A DNA stretch of 64,000 nt, taken from Natrarchaeobaculum sulfurireducens. GTDB lineage: Archaea > Halobacteriota > Halobacteria > Halobacteriales > Natrialbaceae. Of this stretch, positions 1,542 to 13,160 are shown in pieces. The stretch spans positions 868,001 through 932,000 of the forward strand of contig NZ_CP024047.1 of the NCBI RefSeq assembly GCF_003430825.1, given 5' to 3'. The notes under the pieces were generated by a model. That model was not told the origin of the DNA, ran no database searches, and worked only from the letters and a program-made list of their open reading frames with translations. Position numbers and translations under genes: made by a program. Each line of letters starts with the position of its first letter. Positions within the stretch are counted from its first letter, which is position 1.

Positions 1542-2675
1542 TCATTGGTCGGAGCTCACGAACGACATGCGACCTCGTGGCGGTTCAAAAAGACGGTTGT
1601 CGAGTCGACCTTCCCGGGTTGCTGACTGGAAAGAGGTGGTTCCTACGCCGATTCGATTTCGTCGACCAGGTCGATCACACGTTGTTGGATCTCGTCGCGA
1701 ATTCGACCGACGTCGGCCGCCGATTTCCCGTCCGGGTCCTCGAGGTTCCAGTCCCGGTTCTCGCCGGCCCAGCCCGCCGGACAGACGTCGTCGGCTGAAC
1801 AGCCCATGGTGAGACGTAGTCGCTCTCCTGGATTCCTTCGAACGTGATTTCACGGGGAGTCCGCCACGACCTGTCGTCCCCATCGCAATCAGGTCGATCC
1901 CCTCAGATTCTACGTAGTCAGTGATCCCGTCGGCAGGAGTCCCCTCCGTGACCGTCGTCTCGACGTCGAGGCCGCGTTCCCGTGCATCCGCAGCGAGTGT
2001 ATCCAACGCCTCGCGTGAATCCGCACGGAGCGATTCGTCGGATGTGTCTTCACCGTCGGTCAGCGCCGATAGCCACGCTGGGCGAGCAGCCTCGACGACC
2101 GAAAGCAGATGGACGGTCGCAGCAAGCTCCTCGGCGAAACCGAAGCCGACACGGCCTGCTGCTGCCGCGATTTCACTCCCATCCGTCGGGACGAGAACCG
2201 AGTCGACGGACCCGGGCGTCGTCGCTTTCGGGTTAACTGTTATCACCGGAACCGGTGCAGTTCGGACGACCTTGTCGGCGACGCTACCAACGACCGCACG
2301 CCCGACGCTCCCACGTCCGGCCGTTCCAATCACGATCGCATCGACATCCTGTTCCGTAGCGTATGTGATGATCTCCTTGGCTGGTATCCCTTCGCGGACC
2401 GCCGCAGTCGCCGCTATTCCCTGTTCGACCGCGCTGTCACGCAGGGACGCCGCCCGGTTACTCGACAGCTCTCGAAGTCGGTTGCGGATCGACGGCGAAT
2501 CGCCCGCGTAGCCCGCCCCGGTAGCGATACTGCTGTCCGCGACCGAGAGGAGATGGACGTCCGCGTCACACTGTGTTGCGAGGTCGAACCCGCGTCGCGC
2601 GGCGGCTTCGGCCGGCTCGCTTCCGTCGGTCGGGATCAAGAGCGTCTCGAACGTCGTAGTGTGTGTGTCAGTCAT
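1542..2675 (-). CDS. Tandem UspA universal stress protein, truncated and fused to an arsC remnant
   Basis: Residues 1-150 form a complete Usp domain, with the N-terminal strand LLIPTDGSE and the nucleotide-binding motif [15 protein letters not shown] (about 118-131). A second Usp domain starts near 158 (VLVPTDGSE) but stops at GTTGRGG (about 266-272). The usual closing segment (G-S-V-x-x-x-V-V-R) is missing. From about nt 1857 the frame runs through DNA that in other frames encodes an ArsC-like tail, so residues after about 272 are probably out-of-frame translation. The gene starts 5 nt inside the stop region of acr3, giving an arsR-acr3-usp operon. Usp proteins bind ATP or AMP and are linked to stress survival. 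The second half may no longer fold. Confidence 0.85.
1643..1857 (-). pseudogene. arsC: arsC / low-molecular-weight phosphatase-type arsenate reductase remnant
   Basis: Reading the minus strand from 1857 gives [18 protein letters not shown] one-base shift near 1808-1811 then leads into [19 protein letters not shown] and an Arg/Asp-rich tail ending at a stop at 1643-1645. [19 protein letters not shown] and the terminal helix are typical of the C-terminal half of LMW-phosphatase-fold arsenate reductases, which reduce arsenate to arsenite for Acr3 export. The N-terminal half with the catalytic CxxxxxR loop is absent. The remnant abuts the truncated second Usp domain, so a deletion joined the two genes. 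The position at the end of an ars operon supports the identification. Confidence 0.75.
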
Positions 2676-3849
2676 CGTCCGTTTTTGTTGGCGTCACGTC
2701 TTTGTCCGTCGGTTTCGTGCTCTCGAGCTGTCCGGTCTCGTAGCCAGCCCAGTCGAACTTCTCCTGGAAGTAGATGGCGACGTAGACCAATGCGAGCAGC
2801 ACCGGCACCTCGATCAGCGGCCCGATGACGGTCGCGAACGCGACCCCGGAGCCGACGCCGAAGACGGCGACGGCGACCGCAATCGCGAGTTCGAAGTTGT
2901 TCGAGGCGGCGGTGAAGCCGATGGCGGTCGTCGTCGAGTAATCCGCGCCGATGCCACGCCCCATCGCGAAGCTGACGAGGAACATCACGACGAAGTAGAT
3001 CGTCAGCGGGACCGCGAGCCAGACGACGTCGAGTGGCTGTACGAGGATTCGGTCGCCCTGCGTGGCGAACATCACGATCACGGTAAACAGCAGCGCGATC
3101 AGCGTGACGGGGCTGATCTTCGGGACGAACCGCTCTTCGTACCACTCTTCGCCTTTGGCGCGAACCCCACCGAGCCGGGTCAGGATACCGCCAGCGAAGG
3201 GGATGCCGAGGAAGATCGCGATCGCCCAGAACACCTGGGTGATCGTGATGTCGAACGCGTCGATGCCAGCCACCAGCGCGTCCATCCCGAGCGCCTCCGG
3301 GAGAAACAGCGCGAAGAACGTGATGTAGACTCCGTAGGTGAGAATCTGGAAGACGCTGTTGAACGCCACCAGGCCGGCTGCGTACTCGCTCGAGCCGTCG
3401 GCGAGGTCGTTCCAGACGAGCACCATCGCGATACAGCGGGCCATCCCGATGAAGATCAGGCCCAGGAAGTACTCGGGGTGGGCTGGGAACGGCGGGACCA
3501 GTCCGCTGAAGAAGATCACCGCGAGAATGAACATGAGCGTCGGGCCGATCAACCAGTTCTGCAGCAGGCTCAGGCTGAGCACGCGCCACTGGCTGAACAC
3601 GCGGGGCAGCTGGCGGTAGTTGACCTTCGCCAGCGGCGGGTACATCATCGCGATCAGCCCGATCTCGACGAGGTGGAACCGCTGGATCGGTTCTACGACA
3701 CCGGGGGCGACGTAGCCGAGTCCGACACCGATCCCCATCGCGAGGAAGATCCAGACGGTCAGATACTTATCGAGGAAATCCATCGACCGTGGGTCGCCAC
3801 AGTCCGGACAGTCACAGTCGGCCCCGTGGTCGTGGTCGAGGTCACTCAT
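2668..3849 (-). CDS. acr3: ACR3-family arsenite efflux permease
   Basis: Predicted arsenite/H+ antiporter of the ACR3 (bile/arsenite/riboflavin transporter) family, 393 residues with about ten hydrophobic segments. The conserved Cys is seen in [18 protein letters not shown]. The conserved acidic residue of a late helix is in [18 protein letters not shown]. Both are family hallmarks. The N terminus carries a Cys/His-rich patch ([14 protein letters not shown]) before the first helix, possibly a metal-handling extension. The start overlaps the end of arsR by 8 nt, and the 3' end overlaps the region of the usp start, so the three genes are translationally coupled. Confidence 0.92.
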
Positions 3850-4243
3850 CGACGCTCACGCTCCCCTCGAGAACCGTGACGAGCGCCACAGCCCGGTTGG
3901 TCGCCCGATACTTCTTCCAGCGGCCGTCCTTTCGTCCCTCGACGAGTCCCGCCTCGACGAGCGCCGAGAGGGCGTGACTGAGGCCGCTTTCGGTCACGTC
4001 GACGACGGCGTTCAGTTCACAAACGCAGAGTTCTTCTTCGGCCGCGACGAGGACGCGGACGAGGGTATACCGCGTCTCGTTGGACAGCGCCGACAGGACG
4101 TCGAGTTCGGCCTCGACTCGTTCCATCCCGAGTCCGGCCTCTAACGTGGTGAGTTCCTCGAGTCGGCGCTCGACGTCCTCGCTGCGACACTCCCCGAGTT
4201 CGTCGTCGAGATACCGCTGCAATCGGTCGGTCGCTTGTGCCAT
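3842..4243 (-). CDS. arsR: ArsR-family metalloid-responsive repressor
   Basis: This 133-residue winged-helix protein has the ArsR metalloid motif ELCVCEL (Cys73 and Cys75) at the start of the recognition region. It is followed by the helix-turn-helix [19 protein letters not shown] and the wing [12 protein letters not shown]. Proteins of this family repress their own operon and release DNA when arsenite or antimonite binds the Cys pair. It is the first gene of the arsR-acr3-usp operon. The N-terminal 40 residues are an extra helical segment with Cys19. Confidence 0.92.
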
Positions 4244-4250
4244 CGCCAGT

Positions 4251-4275
4251 CACTTGAGTGCTCTTTCAATTAACT
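4251..4275 (-). promoter_or_regulatory. Putative arsR promoter and operator
   Basis: Upstream of the arsR ATG (4243) lies a TATA-like stretch, read on the minus strand as TTAATTGAAA (about 4265-4274), centred about 27 nt from the start. That suggests a leaderless transcript. Between it and the start sits the near-palindrome CACT-TG-AGTG (4251-4260), a plausible ArsR operator. Assignment is by position and symmetry only. Confidence 0.4.
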
Positions 4276-4867
4276 GTTGCGACATGCTCTCAGACGCAGT
4301 GCAGTTAGATGCGCTATCGGGGCGAAAGTGGCTAAAAGATGTGTATGGCCAAATCAGTCCTGTGGGTGAATAAATGAGTAGCGCTTCAATTGAACAGAGG
4401 ATGAATTGGAGGCGATGGGTTGTGACCACGATTCGACTGCCAGCCGGATCGATAGACGAGGAACCCACAGCCGATGGACGTCCGCCGTGGGACCGAGACA
4501 CTCGGCGAATTCCACGGTCGTCCACTCGCGACCGTTACGAACCCTGTGTGGGACGACTCTCACTCCCGCGGGTGTCCTCGAGCAGCTCTCCCGGGGAGTC
4601 TACCTCTCGAGGGAGAGCGATCTCACTTCCACTCTCGGACCCAGATAAACGCTTATTCGCTATACAAAATGGTGGCTCTGATGTTGCTAAGGTGGCTCTA
4701 TAATGCACAGGTTCCACGACTAAGGATACCGAAATAAATGTTCGAGAGTCGTTGAGAACGCGCTTCAGAGAAACCTATCGGATAGCGTTTAGAAAATTAC
4801 CGGAGAAGTCCCGCTCAGGACAGTGCTTCCGCTCCCGAGTGAGGGGGACCCAGAGGAAACGAGGGGG
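4276..4867. other. Intergenic region between ars operon and insertion sequence
   Basis: No convincing gene was found. The stretch includes the palindrome TTCAATTGAA near 4386-4395 and, towards the transposase, a sequence near 4709-4725 (ending CACGACTAAGG). The latter weakly resembles the reverse complement of 6926-6945, so it may be one terminus of the insertion sequence. The ends and target duplication could not be fixed by eye. Confidence 0.4.
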
Positions 4868-6847
4868 TTAGTCCGGCGGGTCGAGGCCGTAGCTGTTCTT
4901 GGCGAACGTCAGGAACGAGTTCGCCGTGATCGACGGCTCGTCAGAGACCTCGCCGTCCATCTCCAGCTGCACCAAGATGTCGACGAGCCGCCAGCAGTTG
5001 TACAGCACGCACGCGAACGCGAAGTTGAAGTACCGGAACCGGTGGTCGGGCGACTGTGTCTCCGCGAGGAACGTCTTCAGCTTCTTGAAGCCGTTCTCGA
5101 TCCCCCATCTGCGCCGGTACTTCGCCATCATGCGCCCGATCTGGTGTTTCATTTCCTGCTCGTCGTCGGGATCGACGTCAACCAGCTCGTAGTTCGTCTC
5201 GAAGGGCACCGTCGGTGCTTCGACCTTCTCGTCGCTCTCGGCCTCTTCTTCTTCACGGATGTCGTCGAGCAGGTTGGAGAGCGGCGAGTCGCTGTCTCGG
5301 TCTTCCGAGAGTGGATCGGCATCGGCGACATCCGAGAACTCGTCCAGCAGTTCCTGGCGGATTGTTACATCCGTTCCATCGTCGCCCTCGTCTTCGCGTT
5401 CCCATTCGCGTTTCGGGAGATAGATCGCCTTCCGCGTCGGGCCGTCGTCGAGGCGCTCTTGCTCGACAACGTCGAAGTCCTTGTCCTCAGTTGTGAGTCG
5501 GGCGATGTGGCGCTCGTGGTCGCTGCTGGAGAGAACCTTTCCAGGGTTGAGATACGCCACGCCGTGCTTCTCGCAGGCGTCCTTCACGGCGTCATGTGCG
5601 AACTCCCGATCCATCATCACGAGGTCGAGTCCGGGTACGATGTCGGTTGCGCCATCGAGGAGATTATCAACGATGTCGGCCCGCTTCCGGCCACGTTTTA
5701 CCGGGACCGCATCGAGGATCAGCGGCACGTCATGGCCGACGATCTTGATCGCGGCCCACTGGAAGAACGGGCCGTCGTTGCCCTTGTACCCGAGAATCCA
5801 CGGGTCCTTGTTCTTCCCGTCCTCGTCGCGCTCGACCTCGCCTTGCCACGGACTCCCCTTGGTGATGTCGATCGCGGCCATCACCTCCCGGCCCATCTTA
5901 TCCTTCGACTTCGCGCGGGCGACGAGTGTTCGGGCAGTCTCGCGGAGCATCGTACGGATCTTTTCGACGCCGAGCGTTCGGGTCTGGAGCCGGTGCGAAT
6001 CGCCTGACGGCGTTTTGTCGCGGGTGGATTCGTCGGCGAAGTTTCCTGCGCCATCGTTCGGGTGCATGTCCACTCGCATCCCCAGGTACGCCTGTTGCTC
6101 CCAGAACGCGCCCTCTGGAATCGACGCGTTCGAGCCACGCTCCAGCTCGAAGCAGTCCTCGACGATCGGCTTCGCACCCTTCCAGACTTCCCGGGCTTTC
6201 TCGCGGGCAAGCGTATCCTTGCTCTTGGATTTGGTAACCGTCCCCGTTGGCTGGTCAGGTAGAAAATCCGGGTCAGGAGCGGGAATGTCATGGTAGCGGG
6301 CGATGTCTACCACGACCTCGGCAGCGTCCCGGACGGCATCCTGAACCTCGGCGAGGCGATCTTCCCACGCCCGCCAGAGCGTGGACTGGTCGGGGATGTC
6401 CTCGAAGCCAAGCTGCGTGCAGAGGAACGGCTTCTGCTTCAGGTACTTGTACAGGGCTGTTGCGTTCTTCCAGCCCTTGACGCAGCGGAGCACGTGCGCT
6501 CGGAAGATAGCTTCCCAGGGCTTTGGGCTGCCCTGTTCGTGATCATACGTATCGTAGAAGCGCAAGTAGCAAGCGGGGACTTCAGCAACGAGGTCCTCCA
6601 GAGAGACGTCGCGGTCGTAGCGGTGCTGTTGCTCGTAGGGATAGGACTTGAGAGCCCCATCGACCATCTCCCGGAACGTCATGTCGAACGACCGGGCTTC
6701 GACAAGGTCGCCAGTGTTCGTCGCGTAGAGGCCTTCTACTTCGTAATCCTTCGGTGTAGATTCGTAGCCAGCAGAATCCAGACGCTTGGGTGGACCGAGG
6801 CGCGTCCACCGTGACCCCGTCGGGGCCTGTGCCGCGCTTGCTGTCAC
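4868..6847 (-). mobile_element. Large DDE transposase, IS4-like superfamily
   Basis: A 659-residue transposase of the DDE (RNase H-fold) type. Probable catalytic residues are Asp327 in MAAIDITKG, Asp413 in LVMMDREF and Glu584 in RRRWGIENGFKKLK; the last has the Y-(2)-R-(3)-E-(6)-K arrangement of IS4-like enzymes. An acidic insertion (about residues 485-550, rich in Asp and Glu) lies between the second Asp and the Glu. The reading frame is intact, so the element may be active. It is longer than ordinary IS4 transposases, and no exact IS name is offered. Codon use is GC-rich like the chromosome. It sits at the left edge of the AT-richer accessory island. Confidence 0.82.
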
Positions 6848-7084
6848 TACTCAAGAATTACGTAGCATAGTATATAAATTCACAGCACAGATTGGTGCTC
6901 TGCCATCCTAAAGAGTACCCGTGTTAACTTAGTGGCGTTCCAAACCTGAACTGATAAGTGGAACTGATGGCAGTCGGCCGGTTTCACCCATCAGTCGGCG
7001 CTTGGAACGGTACTAGTGGCCATCTTCAATATTCACAGCGAAAGCTTGTTACCGTAAGCATGATAAATAAATGGTGCCAATCAT

Positions 7085-8044
7085 ATGTCCATGAAAAAAC
7101 CCGTACTCGGGGCACTACATCAGCCGGAGTATACCGGTGAGAACCGTTGCGAAGCCTGTACCGTAGTCAATGCGATCATCGCAGCCGTTCTCGGTGCCAT
7201 CGTCGCGCGAAAATCGAAGTTCATTGCAGCAATCACTATCGGCGTTTCGGCAGTGCTGATCTACCTACGCGGATATCTCGTCCCGGGAACCCCGACACTC
7301 ACGAAGCGATACCTCTCACCGTCGTTGCTCCGATTGTTTGGAAAGGAACCGGAACCGACGACCTACAGCGGCTTCGGGCCCGTTGAGTCGGAACCCAACG
7401 AGTCACCTGCGGCACCACAATCGCGGCCGTCGACGCAGGGCGACACCGAGTCCACCGACGCAGCCGTTGCGGACGGTGATAGAACGAAGACGGAGGACCG
7501 GACAAATGCGGACGCAGACCCGATCACCCCCGAAGCGTTCTTCCTCGAGCACGACATCATCGAACCGTGTGCGGAGGTCGAGGATCTCTGTCTCACCGAG
7601 TCATTCAGAATCGAGTGGCACGAGGAGATCAATCGCATAGATGCGGACGCGCTCAAGGCCGAGGACGCAGCAGTTGCGGTCGGACTCACGGATGAAGAGG
7701 GGGGCTTCGAGATTGTCCATCATGGTGATGCCCGCGTCCTCCGACGCGACAACCGCCGAATTGGACAGTGGCCATCACAGGCAGCCCTCGTCGCGGACGT
7801 GACCGCCGCTCGTGTTCTCGATTCGTGGGTCGAGGAGTGGACATCGCTCACCATCGACAAAAAAGGGGCGCTGCTCAACGGCTTGCGGCTCTTCCTCGAG
7901 ACGTGTCCGATGACCGGTGGTGATGTCACGATGGATGAAGAAACGGTCGAGTCCTGCTGTCGATCATACGATGTGATAGCGGTCACTTGTGCGAAATCAG
8001 GTGAGCGACTGTTCGAGCATCCGGTGACCGAGTCTGAGGACTAA
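7085..8044 (+). CDS. Two-helix membrane protein with acidic linker, function unknown
   Basis: This 319-residue protein begins with a short N-terminal segment containing CEAC (Cys22 and Cys25). Two hydrophobic segments follow (about 28-41 and 44-61), then an Asp/Glu/Ser/Thr-rich linker (about 78-150) and a soluble domain (about 150-319) with several Cys. The architecture suggests a membrane-anchored cytoplasmic or surface domain. The PEYTGENRCxxCTVVN start looks like a conserved haloarchaeal N-terminus, but no function can be assigned. A second ATG at 7091 is an equally possible start. It lies alone between two transposases, in an island of mobile DNA. Confidence 0.7.
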   Translation: MSMKKPVLGALHQPEYTGENRCEACTVVNAIIAAVLGAIVARKSKFIAAITIGVSAVLIYLRGYLVPGTPTLTKRYLSPSLLRLFGKEPEPTTYSGFGPVESEPNESPAAPQSRPSTQGDTESTDAAVADGDRTKTEDRTNADADPITPEAFFLEHDIIEPCAEVEDLCLTESFRIEWHEEINRIDADALKAEDAAVAVGLTDEEGGFEIVHHGDARVLRRDNRRIGQWPSQAALVADVTAARVLDSWVEEWTSLTIDKKGALLNGLRLFLETCPMTGGDVTMDEETVESCCRSYDVIAVTCAKSGERLFEHPVTESED

Positions 8045-8162
8045 TATCGTTGCGTCCGTCAACCGATGGGTGAGATCCATAACATCGTCGGATTTTGTTC
8101 ATCTGTCGATGTTAAACTGGATTAAAAAGATTAATTTGATTTTTCTATCTGGTACTAAATGC

Positions 8163-8671
8163 ACTCACCAAGCATTCTGGAACTGGGCACGTCGGCTGGC
8201 TGACAGCGTACCAGATCTTCCGACAGCGTAGCCGTCGCGGGTCGCGGTTGATGAAACCACTGTCAGGATTAGCGGCGACCGGTCCTTGATCTATGCTACA
8301 ATGGATCTCGACACGAAAATTATTCCCGACGTAGTGCTCATTGGACGAGGGGGAACCGATTTAGTTGCTGCGTTTCTGCATGGACTCACTGAGAAACACG
8401 ATCTCGCCGAGTCTGAGCTTCTCGTTGATAGTGCTGGCTATCTGACTTCCTTTTCTCGATTAGGATTGAACGGTCCCTTGGTTATGTCGATCGGGACCAC
8501 ATCGAAAAGTGGCTTCATACTCTCAAAATCCGGATCGACCGCTTCCATGACTCGTGAGTCGGCAGTCGGACAAGTATCAGAGAATAGATTGAACAGTTCG
8601 TAGACTACTATAACACACAGCGACCACACCAGAGACTAACCGGACAGACGCCAACGGAGGGGGTAAACTAG
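8163..8671 (+). pseudogene. Decayed IS6-type (DDE) transposase
   Basis: The plus strand encodes THQAFWNWARRLADSVPDLP, an in-frame TAG (8229-8231), then RVAVDETTVRISGD with the first catalytic Asp, and LLVDSAGYL with the second. After a frameshift near 8480 it continues as YVDRDHIEKWLHTLKIRIDR. Further stops interrupt the tail, which ends QRPHQRLTGQTPTEGVN before a stop at 8669-8671. These segments match the order of an IS6/IS240-like transposase (ISH14/ISH15-like). At least three stops and a frameshift show it is dead. The N-terminal part is missing. Confidence 0.8.
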
Positions 8672-8699
8672 ATAGTGCCAAGACCTATGAATAGTCAAA

Positions 8700-8745
8700 T
8701 ATCGTTAGAAATACTTATTGGTAATTGTCATTACTATCTGAATGT
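8700..8745 (+). promoter_or_regulatory. Orphaned promoter of the halocin-like gene
   Basis: AT-rich sequence immediately before the left copy of the 9-bp duplication ATGGCAGAA (8746-8754). A TATA-like ATACTTATT at 8711-8719 lies about 30 nt before this ATG, the spacing of a leaderless haloarchaeal promoter. The IS1595-type element now separates it from the gene it should drive. Confidence 0.5.
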
Positions 8746-8754
8746 ATGGCAGAA
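8746..8754. repeat. Left 9-bp target-site duplication
   Basis: ATGGCAGAA directly precedes the first base of the terminal repeat at 8755. The identical sequence at 9782-9790 directly follows the other end. This defines the insertion exactly, and the duplicated target contains the ATG start codon of the interrupted gene. Confidence 0.9.
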
Positions 8755-8806
8755 CGCTCTTGTGTAGCACTTTGTTGATTCGCTCTTGTGTAGCACTTTG
8801 TTGATT
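8755..8806. repeat. Tandemly duplicated 26-bp terminal repeat
   Basis: Positions 8755-8780 and 8781-8806 are identical 26-bp copies starting CGCTCTTGTGTAG and ending TTTGTTGATT. The second copy abuts the transposase stop codon (8807-8809). A normal element would have one copy here. Confidence 0.95.
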
Positions 8807-9691
8807 TCACAGCGTAGCTTTGACAGCGTGTTTGAGTGCCTCTCGCCCTGGTTTCCGCAGTAGTTTTCGTCGAAGTTGGAACGCTCGGAGATACTGTGTG
8901 AGCTTATCTTTTGAGATGCCTCGATGAGGCGAGAACCACGGTCGCAGCAGCGATCCGTGGCTCTCGCAGGTGTTGACGTGAACGTCTTTGTCGGCGTATT
9001 CGCCGTCGCCGTGGACGACGTATTCGCGGTCGAATGCGTCGTCCTCGGCCAGCGGATCGTAGGCACGAAATCCGTCCGTGTAGATGGTCAGTGGCTCCTT
9101 CTCGCGGTTTGCGAGAAGGAGCCGAATAGTCGATTCATCGGCGGATTTCGCTGGGATCACGTACCGATCGCCGGTACCACGATCGACGATCGTGAACACC
9201 GGCGGTTTGTCCTGGTCGTACGATCCTCGTCCACGCGTGGACAGGCCACGCGAGCGCGACTCTTGGTCGCGCTCGCGGCCTTTCAACCCTGCAGAAACGT
9301 AGATCTCGTCGATTTCGACCGGCCCGACGAGGTCGAGTGACGGGGCGTCGAGCGCCTTCGTGAAGCGCTCGACGCGCTGGTAGATCGTTTTGTACTGAAC
9401 ATCGATCTCTAGCTGAAGTTGGCGAAGACTCGTGTTAAACCGGAGAAATGCGTAAATCGAGAACAGCCACTTCCTGAGCGCGACCTTCGAATGGGCAAAG
9501 ATCGTGCCGGTCTTGTCGTTGAACGTGCGGTCGCAATTCTTACAGAGATAGCGCTGAAAGTGCCCATAGCTGCCGTTCTTGACCGTCAGGTCAGAACGGC
9601 AGCGAGGGCAAGTAACACCGTTACGCCAGCGAACCTGCTGCAACAGGTCCGCTGCGACCGATTCCGACCCAAACACATCTAGCGGAATCAT
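8807..9691 (-). CDS. IS1595-family transposase
   Basis: A 294-residue transposase from the ATG at 9691 (MIPLDVFGSESVAADLLQQ). An in-frame ATG at 9739 would add 16 residues over a hairpin and is less likely. It has an N-terminal zinc ribbon (CPRC ... CKNC, about residues 28-54) and a helix-turn-helix region. The catalytic domain has Asp residues in VEIDEIYV and YTDGFRAY, and the closing segment HVNTCESHGSLLRPW. This layout is that of the IS1595 family. The frame is intact, so the element may still be mobile. Confidence 0.9.
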   Translation of the reverse strand: MIPLDVFGSESVAADLLQQVRWRNGVTCPRCRSDLTVKNGSYGHFQRYLCKNCDRTFNDKTGTIFAHSKVALRKWLFSIYAFLRFNTSLRQLQLEIDVQYKTIYQRVERFTKALDAPSLDLVGPVEIDEIYVSAGLKGRERDQESRSRGLSTRGRGSYDQDKPPVFTIVDRGTGDRYVIPAKSADESTIRLLLANREKEPLTIYTDGFRAYDPLAEDDAFDREYVVHGDGEYADKDVHVNTCESHGSLLRPWFSPHRGISKDKLTQYLRAFQLRRKLLRKPGREALKHAVKATL

Positions 9692-9698
9692 GCCTAAC

Positions 9699-9720
9699 GG
9701 ACACCGCTGACGCGGTGTCC
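9699..9720 (-). promoter_or_regulatory. Hairpin just upstream of the transposase start
   Basis: Perfect 9-bp stem GGACACCGC / GCGGTGTCC with a 4-nt loop, ending 7 nt before the preferred ATG (9691). In the mRNA it would fold immediately ahead of the start codon and could limit translation when the element is read from outside. The function is inferred from position. Confidence 0.5.
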
Positions 9721-9781
9721 TTGCTCTCTTCGATTCCACAGCGACAGCTGAGCAGTATCAACAATCTCCTACAGAAGAGCG

Positions 9782-10697
9782 ATGGCAGAAAATAACCATA
9801 CTGACCGTAGAACAGAATCTGAAGCCAGCAACTATGACAATAATGCTCCATCACGTCGCTCAGTCCTTCAAAGGGTAGGCGCAGCTAGTGCTGCCGGTAT
9901 AGGATTAATGAAGTTCAGGGATAGCAGCTGGTGAAGACAGTGATCCACTTGTTGTTCCAGTTGAAAATAATGAGGCTCGCGAACAAATTCAAATTGCTAA
10001 AAAAAGTCCTGAGTTTGATGAGTATAAGACATTCATCAGGGATGAACTGGATGCAACAATCAACAAAGGTCAAGCAGATGTTTATCAACGAAATAACGAT
10101 GAAGACTCTGAAGTTTACGGTGTATCTTTCCCAGTTAAACAAGAAGGGGAAGATATCGCGGACGTTGCCTTTCTTATTAGTGACGGTGAAATTCAGGCAA
10201 CACAAGCTGTGAAAACAAAATTCAATGGATCAATTGAAGAAGGAGAGGATGAAGCTGAAATCAAAGTGGTTTCCGAGGATCACGAACCGCTGGTAGCAGT
10301 GACACGATATACGCTCTCCGAAGATGGAGTAGAGAAAGATTCTGCTGAGTTTGAGTCTGGGGATGTATCACCACTTGTTGGACACGGAGATATTGAATTG
10401 CCAGAGATTGATGATTGGGATGATCTTCCAAGCTATGACGACATTCCTGGTGCCCCAAGTATTGACGTGTCGTGTGGAGAATGTGAAGAACTCTTTGAGA
10501 CGGCTTGTATTGTAGGATGCGGAGTAACTATTGGAACCATTTGTATTATTGTTACAGGTGGAATTGGTGCGTTAGCTTGTGCTGCTATCGTTAGCATCGC
10601 ATGTATTGTTATTGATTATCTTGGGACAGATGCATGTGCGCCAGGAAGCGATATCGTTGAATCCGAAGAATTTTGCTCCCAGCTTTCGTTCTGTTAG
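9782..10697 (+). pseudogene. Halocin C8-like microhalocin precursor, frameshifted
   Basis: From ATG 9782 (the right copy of the IS target duplication) the frame reads MAENNHTDRRTESEASN, then a Tat signal SRRSVLQRVGAASAAGIGL, and stops at 9932. Dropping one base near 9914 restores one frame to 10697, giving about 304 residues. This is close to the 283-residue halocin C8 precursor, in which an immunity part precedes the peptide. The last 79 residues (from about 10458) hold ten Cys with spacings 2-7-3-7-11-7-10-12-5, against 2-7-3-7-13-7-8-8-5 recalled for halocin C8. The end SQLSFC also resembles NRAGLC of C8. The middle part (about 75-215) would correspond to the immunity region. The DNA is AT-rich relative to neighbours. 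No alternative ATG exists after the frameshift; GTG 10209 is the only late start noted. Confidence 0.85.
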
Positions 10698-10700
10698 CCG

Positions 10701-10883
10701 ATGAGAATCTCAACTAGCAGAATAAAGCGAGCAATCGCTGGTGGAGTTGGCGCTAGTTTAGCGGCAATTGCCACTAGTTTATTTCTTGGGTATTCAACAA
10801 ACCAGTCTGTCTTATTTGGATTATTATTAGGAATTGTATTAGCTATGCTTTTATTCATTTTTTATATCCCACCTGCAGAGTAA
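10701..10883 (+). CDS. Two-helix membrane peptide downstream of the halocin gene
   Basis: A 60-residue protein with a basic N terminus (MRISTSRIKRAIAGG) and two hydrophobic stretches (about residues 14-30 and 36-55). It begins 3 nt after the stop of the halocin-like gene and shares its AT-rich composition, so the two are probably co-transcribed. Small membrane proteins beside bacteriocin genes often act in immunity or export. That role here is inference from position only. Confidence 0.6.
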   Translation: MRISTSRIKRAIAGGVGASLAAIATSLFLGYSTNQSVLFGLLLGIVLAMLLFIFYIPPAE

Positions 10884-11336
10884 TATATAAATCACAAAAG
10901 CAGTAATATATCAAATATTAAAATATAATGGATAAATGCCCCCGAAACTGATTACAATCATTTGATTAGTGTTCTGATTGAAAGTCTGTTTGTTGCTCGC
11001 GGAAACTGTCTTCCACAATTCTAATAAAATCAGGTTAGTCACTCGTGACCAGAGGTACGCGAGACCACTCAGTCTGGCGACTGGTCTTCCCTGGGCCTAT
11101 GCATTATTCCCTATCTTCGCAACACGTCGTGGCTGGTCGCACGGAGTCCGGCAGGTGAGTTCATACGCACCGATCCACCAACTCGAGGGCGTTCGCGCGC
11201 TCTCCGCTGTAACTCGAGCGTATCGCGGCTTACCAGCCGCGTTTTGGCCGGGGGCTATACCTGTAATTGCCCGCGCGGGCGCGCCGTATACACGTAACGG
11301 ATAGCCACAACCGAACTGTCGACTACCGTAGTGACA
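10884..11336. other. Intergenic region after the halocin locus
   Basis: The first 100 nt are very AT-rich (runs such as AATATATAAATC), consistent with transcription termination. From about 10980 the sequence returns to the chromosomal GC level. A region of alternating CG near 11268-11285 (CCCGCGCGGGCGCG) precedes the HalOD1 gene. No gene was recognised. Confidence 0.5.
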
Positions 11337-11627
11337 ATGGCTCACAGTACGAGGCTGCGCGACATCCCGGACGGTGATCGGGCGAGTATGCGGATCGTCG
11401 ACGCGGTGGCAAGGCACCGAGAGGTCCACCCGACCGAACTCCACGCTCCCCTGTACGCTGCGATCGATCCCGAGGCACTCGACCGCCTCTTCGACTCGAC
11501 GGCTGCCGATGCCCTCGATGTCACCTTCGAGTACGCCGGGCACTCGGTCCTCGTCGAGGGCGAGGGGCGAGTGACGGTCGACGATACCGTCCACGACTCG
11601 GCCCCCGAGTTCAGGGGCGAGGGGTAA
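11337..11627 (+). CDS. HalOD1 domain protein
   Basis: A 96-residue protein consisting of the haloarchaeal output domain 1 (HalOD1). The core reads IVDAVARHREVHPTELHAPLY, then AIDPEALDRLF and VTFEYAGHSVLVEGEGRV, matching the family order helix, helix, beta hairpin. HalOD1 proteins are thought to act downstream of haloarchaeal sensor kinases and response regulators, with unknown target. ATG 11337 is used; GTG 11331 is possible. The stop overlaps the next start (TAATG). Confidence 0.85.
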   Translation: MAHSTRLRDIPDGDRASMRIVDAVARHREVHPTELHAPLYAAIDPEALDRLFDSTAADALDVTFEYAGHSVLVEGEGRVTVDDTVHDSAPEFRGEG

Positions 11628-11782
11628 TGAGTCGGACGAATCCATCTCGAGCGGAGGTCCCGACGATCGAAGAGACGTACGACGAGTACCGGATCGACTC
11701 GACGACGTTCGCGATCATCGGTCACCCGACGAACGACGACGCCTGGATTCTCTCGGATTATACGGTCCCGATCGAGCGGTGA
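11627..11782 (+). CDS. Small conserved-looking haloarchaeal protein
   Basis: A 51-residue ORF starting MSRTNPSRAEVPTIEETYDE and ending DAWILSDYTVPIER. The ATG overlaps the HalOD1 stop in TAATG, so translation is coupled. The pattern YDEYRID-TTFAII followed by a Trp-Ile strand looks like one small beta domain and resembles short proteins commonly placed after HalOD1 genes. No function can be named. Confidence 0.75.
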   Translation: MSRTNPSRAEVPTIEETYDEYRIDSTTFAIIGHPTNDDAWILSDYTVPIER

Positions 11783-12018
11783 CGACCGGACGCTCGACCG
11801 ATCGCAGACGGCTGTGAGAACGTCGAAAGCGGGCACAAACTCGAGGTTGCCGACCGGTTCCGGCGGCTTCGAAGCGCTTATACACGAACGCTGGATACCT
11901 TCTGTCAGACTCGCTGGGAACGCGGACGACAGCGGGCACCTGTACGGCATCACGCCCACAGGTCGGGATGTGATCTCGCGACGCGAGATTGAACCAGGAA
12001 ACGTCCGCAGGCAAATCC

Positions 12019-12609
12019 ATGGCAAAGAGCTTCTACTCACACATCAAAGACGCCTGGAAGGACCCCGACGACGGCAAGCTCGGGGAGCTCCAGTGGCAGC
12101 GCAAACAGGAATGGCGAAAGCAGGGCGCGATCGAGCGCATCGAGCGACCGACGCGTCTCGACAAGGCCCGCGAACTCGGCTACAAGGCCAAACAGGGCAT
12201 CGTCGTCGCTCGCGTGTCCGTCCGCAAAGGGACGGCCCGCAAGCAGCGGTTCAAGGCCGGTCGTCGATCCAAGCGCCAGGGCGTCAACCGCATCGGTCGA
12301 CGCAAAAACATCCAGCGCATCGGTGAAGAGCGCGTCTCCCGCAAGTACCCCAACCTGCGCGTGCTCAACAGTTACTGGGTCGGGGAAGACGGCAGCCAGA
12401 AGTGGTTCGAAGTGATCCTCGTGGATCCGAACCACCCGGCGATCGAGAACGACGACGATCTCAACTGGATCTGCGACGACGCCCACACGAACCGTGCGTT
12501 CCGTGGGCTGACGAACGCAGGCAAGGACAACCGCGGCCTCCGCACCCGCGGCAAGGGTGCCGAAAAGGTCCGTCCGTCCAACAACGGCGGCCAGGGCCGC
12601 GCGAAATAA
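12019..12609 (+). CDS. rpl15e: 50S ribosomal protein L15e
   Basis: A 196-residue protein beginning [19 protein letters not shown]. It contains the family segments [31 protein letters not shown] and [25 protein letters not shown]-type text, and ends in a basic tail ([16 protein letters not shown]). L15e is a large-subunit protein shared by archaea and eukaryotes and contacts 23S rRNA. The start at 12019 matches the usual MAK-SF beginning; the upstream in-frame ATG at 11989 is disregarded. Confidence 0.97.
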
Positions 12610-12639
12610 CGCGGTCGATCGACCAGACCCACCGTCCGA

Positions 12640-12656
12640 ACGAGAACCGTTTTTTG
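12640..12656 (+). terminator. Oligo-T terminator after L15e
   Basis: A run of six T (12650-12655) about 40 nt after the L15e stop, following GC-rich sequence, fits archaeal oligo-T termination. Confidence 0.4.
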
Positions 12657-12725
12657 TGAAGTACCTCGGTAGACCGGCGACCGGACCCACCGGAAGTTAA
12701 ACCCGAGCCCGTAGTAGTCGCTCCT

Positions 12726-13160
12726 ATGACAGACCACGTTCTCGTCCCCGTCGACGACTCCGAGAAGTCGATCGATGCCCTCGAGTTCGCGTGTACCGAG
12801 TACCCGAGCGCGTCGATCACCGCGCTCCACGTCGTCGATCCCGGCGATTTCTATGCGGCGACAGGCGTTGAAGGCGGTGCGATGGCGAACTACGAGCAGA
12901 TCAAAGCACACCACGAGAACTACGCCGAAGAGATTCTCGAGTCGGCCCGGAAGCGAGCGGCCGACCACGGCCGTGAGATCGAGACCAAACAGCTCGTCGG
13001 TGGCGTCTCGCGAACGATCGTCGAGTACGCGGCCGACCACGACGTCGATCACATCGCCGTTGGCAGCCACGGCCGGACCGGTGCGAGTCGGATCCTCCTG
13101 GGAAGCGTCGCTGAGACGATTGCGCGACGGTCACCGGTGCCGGTGACGATCGTTCGCTAG
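12726..13160 (+). CDS. UspA-family universal stress protein
   Basis: A 144-residue single Usp domain. It has the N-terminal strand HVLVPVDDSEKS, a central helical region with EEILESARKRAADHG, and the ATP-binding motif GSHGRTGASRILLGSVAETIARRSPVPVTIV. The motif G-2x-G-9x-G-S indicates an ATP-binding type. A TATA-like TTAAA lies near 12697, about 27 nt before the ATG, suggesting leaderless transcription. It is the first of two near-identical neighbours. Confidence 0.92.
   Translation: MTDHVLVPVDDSEKSIDALEFACTEYPSASITALHVVDPGDFYAATGVEGGAMANYEQIKAHHENYAEEILESARKRAADHGREIETKQLVGGVSRTIVEYAADHDVDHIAVGSHGRTGASRILLGSVAETIARRSPVPVTIVR

Follow-up and report, generated by a model that had tools for sequence, protein, structure and literature searches.

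A halocin-C8-like gene of Natrarchaeobaculum sulfurireducens, probably inactivated in the recent past, with an insertion sequence at its start codon and a frame break after its Tat signal

The closest described counterpart of the locus reported here is the halocin C8 precursor (ProC8; TIGR04449; HalI plus HalC8), for which production and immunity arise from a single gene, ProC8/HalI (reviewed in PMC11509114). Our locus, in a 64-kb window of the N. sulfurireducens genome, resembles that system in having one precursor gene with a Tat leader, an acidic pro-region and a C-terminal peptide of ~75 residues that holds ten cysteines and has Cys as its last residue; it differs in that the leader and the remainder lie in separate frames and in that the start codon abuts an insertion sequence, and its match to the HalC8 model is weak (25–28 bits). 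Archaeal genes split over two frames have a precedent in Sulfolobus solfataricus fucA1, whose −1 programmed frameshifting has a slippery heptamer, A-AAA-AAT, and whose break recurs in two strains; +1 frameshifting has been reported for one haloarchaeal virus (both PMC8211752).

A halocin-C8-like gene in two reading frames

The preliminary description had the frame from ATG 9782 stopping at 9932 and a Cys-rich frame open from 9912, and both observations were borne out (Table 1). The 50-codon frame carries the twin-arginine leader SRRSVLQRVGAASAAGIGLM, in which the motif SRRSVLQ precedes a hydrophobic stretch, so that an RR-type Tat signal is present, out of frame with the remainder. The second frame, of 261 codons, is preceded directly by TGA 9909–9911 and runs to a stop at 10695–10697; an opening of this length has a probability of ~1e-8 at the local composition and hence is not a chance event. 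The two frames are offset by +1 and overlap only at ~9912–9931, and since TGA codons block both of them outside, the frame change must fall at ~9909–9931. Removal of one T near 9914 had been proposed to join the two; the frame break itself stands, the choice of that particular T does not, any net one-base change in the overlap being equivalent. The reported lack of an ATG for ~300 nt in the second frame proved an understatement, as this frame contains none over its whole length (its first GTG is at 10209).

Table 1. Features of the halocin-C8-like locus and its surroundings (positions in the window).
Feature	Position	Strand	Details
Island, ~6.45 kb, probably acquired	4678..11128	.	two transposase genes, IS6-family remnant, halocin locus
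Target-site duplication, left copy, 9 bp	8746..8754	+	ATGGCAGAA; the gene's original upstream region (8690–8745) lies to its left
IS1595-family insertion sequence, 1027 bp	8755..9781	-	NF033547 (142 bits), PF12762; transposase 8807–9739, minus strand; ends CGCTCTTSTGTAG
Target-site duplication, right copy, 9 bp	9782..9790	+	ATGGCAGAA; the ATG that opens the leader frame lies within it
Leader frame	9782..9934	+	ATG 9782, 50 codons, twin-arginine (Tat) signal, TGA 9932–9934; TIGR01409 17.1 bits (cut-off 16.7)
Interval of net one-base frame change	9909..9931	+	bounded by TGA 9909–9911 (downstream frame) and TGA 9932–9934 (leader frame)
Downstream frame	9912..10697	+	ten-cysteine halocin-C8-like domain at the C-terminus (~10473–10694), preceded by a pro-region (HalI-like position)
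Intact 60-codon ORF	10701..10883	+	two predicted TM segments; 3 nt past the halocin stop

Scored with TIGR04449, the model of the halocin C8-like domain, the downstream frame reaches 25.0 bits where 24 is the cut-off, and the genome search gave it 28.0 bits; all ten cysteines are kept. Judged as a working gene, which is a separate matter from descent, the locus is a broken member of the family, having no single open precursor frame (TGA 9932–9934, +1 offset). The genome search returned no second TIGR04449 gene in the same genome, and an Rfam search gave no match. Close orthologues were absent from genome_contigs, viral_contigs, plasmids and 60 relatives; the wider and family searches brought up distant relatives only. 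The nearest, L034, is 36% identical to the downstream frame over 242 residues (E 3.5e-35), followed by L035 at ~30% identity. In L034 the ATG, the RR motif and the Cys domain all lie in one uninterrupted frame of 319 codons. At the break position, whose comparison with orthologues had been suggested, this nearest relative has no break; the genomes searched include a single carrier of the gene and no near-identical orthologue. In three other loci (L094, L097, L107) the TIGR04449 domain ends far longer proteins (~680–720 residues), an architecture unlike that of halocin C8.

An IS1595-family element at the start codon, within a low-GC island

The element that abuts the leader frame shares with IS1595-family insertions that inactivate host genes a zinc-ribbon DDE transposase, inverted ends and a direct target duplication, all three of which were found here. 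It departs from such insertions in general in that the duplication is 9 bp at both genomic copies and that insertion at a start codon leaves an ATG on either side, the latter because both the insertion and the duplication fell on that codon. A single further copy exists in this genome (G000:C3:2522358-2523385, 4/1027 mismatches), flanked on both sides by a 9-bp duplication of its own, TACGTTATA. Both copies carry a tandem repeat, of two units, of the 26-bp terminal sequence at the left end of the element (8755–8806 in the window). The native upstream DNA is now more than 1 kb from the coding region; within it, inspection by eye picks out an AT-rich stretch, TACTTATT, at 8712–8719, ~30 nt before the left ATG, the position expected for a candidate haloarchaeal TATA element.

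The locus sits in a segment that a same-genus contig (G002:C122, L068) does not share: this contig matches window positions 1861–4677 at 96.9% and 11129–13111 at 87%, with nothing in between. Its empty-site junction reads AAAATGGTGGCTGGTCGCACGG, and the hexamer GTGGCT occurs at both edges of the island. The segment may have been inserted in this genome or precisely lost from G002; acquisition is favoured by its low GC content (the halocin gene has 43%, the window 62.6%). Since the G002 genome is only 77% complete, it could carry such a gene elsewhere. Elsewhere in the window, a universal-stress-protein gene (1542–2675) has an odd C-terminus and a ~330-bp deletion relative to G002 at ~1865, by which two genes seem to have been joined.

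Origin of the frame break

We consider it probable that the locus holds a halocin-C8-like gene that arrived by horizontal transfer and was inactivated recently, with an insertion sequence at its start codon and a net +1 break after its Tat signal. Among the three options raised in the preliminary description (decay after silencing by the insertion sequence, a wrong base call, frameshifting), decay is the best supported, by the element on the start codon, the 9-bp duplication and the unbroken frame of L034. The empty site of the whole island in G002 and the frequent leader damage among relatives (below) also speak for it. The gene formerly encoded a Tat leader, a pro-region and a C-terminal ten-cysteine peptide, with the small membrane-protein ORF behind it. 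Two lesions followed, in either order: the IS1595-family element entered at the start codon, duplicating 9 bp and cutting the coding region off from its native upstream sequence, and a net gain of one base (or loss of two) at ~9909–9931 shifted the leader into a different frame from the remainder. Under this scheme no precursor should be made or exported, the product from ATG 9782 ending after 50 residues and the remainder (9912–10697) offering no start codon that would keep the leader. Such a break may well be tolerable because the halocin C8 toxin and HalI-type immunity share one precursor, so that both would be lost together. The lesions are presumably recent, since the frame carries a single one and is otherwise open for 261 codons with its ten cysteines kept. 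We saw no second lesion in the downstream frame, a result equally expected from a base-call error or from a gene still in use. If the decay scheme holds, the odd frameshift comes down to a mobile antimicrobial gene being lost in the ordinary way.

An error of base calling or assembly, with the coding region intact in the cell and still cut from its upstream DNA by the insertion sequence, would account for a gene of ~312 codons that is clean but for one discrepancy of a single base. We regard it as unlikely. The conserved genes of the 64-kb window, set against their orthologues from the same-genus G002 and G003, have continuous frames and no one-base breaks, with the ~330-bp deletion at ~1865 as the sole exception; the break site holds runs of two and three bases only and no long homopolymer, and the assembly consists of 3 contigs at 99.98% completeness. 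Clean neighbours and short runs lower the chance of a local error without removing it, and they leave the option of a wrong base call disfavoured; the insertion and its target duplication hold whatever the base count.

Programmed or leaky +1 frameshifting in the overlap could instead join the leader to the precursor, for instance if the tRNA on AGG 9917 re-paired with GGG. This is plausible on paper: AGG, here followed by G, is a rare codon of the genome (0.8 in every 1000), +1 breaks near the end of the leader also occur in the relatives L082 and L083, and the viral case provides a haloarchaeal example. The three +1 breaks, however, have no position or motif in common (a purine-rich tract in L082, an AAAAGG context in L083), and the offset is not conserved, L034 and the majority of the family having a single frame. 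The RNA fold of 9905–9990 is unremarkable (z −0.85, 35/200 shuffles folding at least as well), and the promoter side of the gene is severed by the insertion sequence. Apart from the rare AGG with its following G, the overlap contains no known slippery heptamer; unlike fucA1, the shift is +1 and has neither a heptamer nor conservation. With no conserved shift site, unusual fold or conserved offset, programmed frameshifting appears very improbable, and the suggestion of it in the preliminary description found neither comparative nor structural backing. Re-initiation at GTG 9931, which overlaps the leader stop, was rejected since this codon lies in the third frame. It would be more surprising still if the downstream frame were a gene in its own right that begins at GTG 10209 and yields an unexported product. 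That codon does open a 162-codon frame holding the entire Cys domain; starting 99 codons into the downstream frame, its product would nevertheless lack both the leader and a stretch whose equivalent the relatives retain, and the downstream frame has no ATG, nor is any of the relatives built with an internal start.

Leader damage and a membrane-protein ORF across the family

We analysed 76 TIGR04449 loci from haloarchaeal genomes and found damage to the leader or start codon in eight relatives, the present gene not counted. L028 has a TGA (nonsense) in the hydrophobic stretch of the leader, and L030 (G103:C2) an 82-bp MITE-like insertion in the leader with inverted ends TAGTAGCCG, which must be very recent because the 255 codons downstream of it are identical to those of the intact L014 of another genome. 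The +1 breaks of L082 and L083 fall at the leader end, L074 is truncated at its 5′ end, the ATG is changed to ATA in L031 and L032 (with TTG a possible start in L031), and L035 has no start codon. Beyond these lesions the frames of the eight are intact. In the pro-region, whose length is ~2.5 times that of the leader, the damage consists of truncations or large deletions only (L012, L016, L098, L099, L134), and none of the analysed loci has a small lesion there. Leaving out the present window, small lesions past the start codon fall in the leader in 4/4 cases (binomial p 0.006), and with truncations included in 5/9 (p 0.08), from counts that are small, picked post hoc and taken regardless of relatedness. 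The pattern is suggestive of halocin-C8-like genes being damaged preferentially in the leader while the pro-region is spared small lesions, and frequent loss of such genes through leader damage is a testable pointer. That repeated silencing in the leader (at the start codon, in the Tat signal or just past it) leaves the immunity-plus-peptide portion intact to some advantage, either because the unexported remainder or the downstream membrane protein is still useful or because silent copies serve as recombination donors, seems to us doubtful.

The small ORF behind the halocin-like gene is part of another pattern in the family. Taking ORFs of 45–160 codons with 2–4 TM segments and a start no more than 110 nt from the halocin stop, we found one directly behind the gene at 25 of the 54 loci with enough flank, the present locus counted; at control positions the figures are 6/216 (same strand, further downstream) and 5/162 (opposite strand, upstream), an enrichment with Fisher p ~5e-15 when relatedness is ignored. 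The loci concerned include L004, L005, L017, L034, L040, L045, L070–L072, L075, L077–L080 and L082–L084 (a partial list); the canonical-looking halC8 loci L007–L010, by contrast with the 2-TM ORF of the present locus, have none. By eye, the ORF product of the window looks akin to that of L034. The halocin literature that we searched yielded no description of such an ORF. These two family-wide patterns are, in our view, more worth following than the frameshift itself: with a membrane-protein gene behind about half of the halocin-C8-like genes, its product is a candidate immunity, accessory or processing factor, the first of these roles placing it beside the HalI model.
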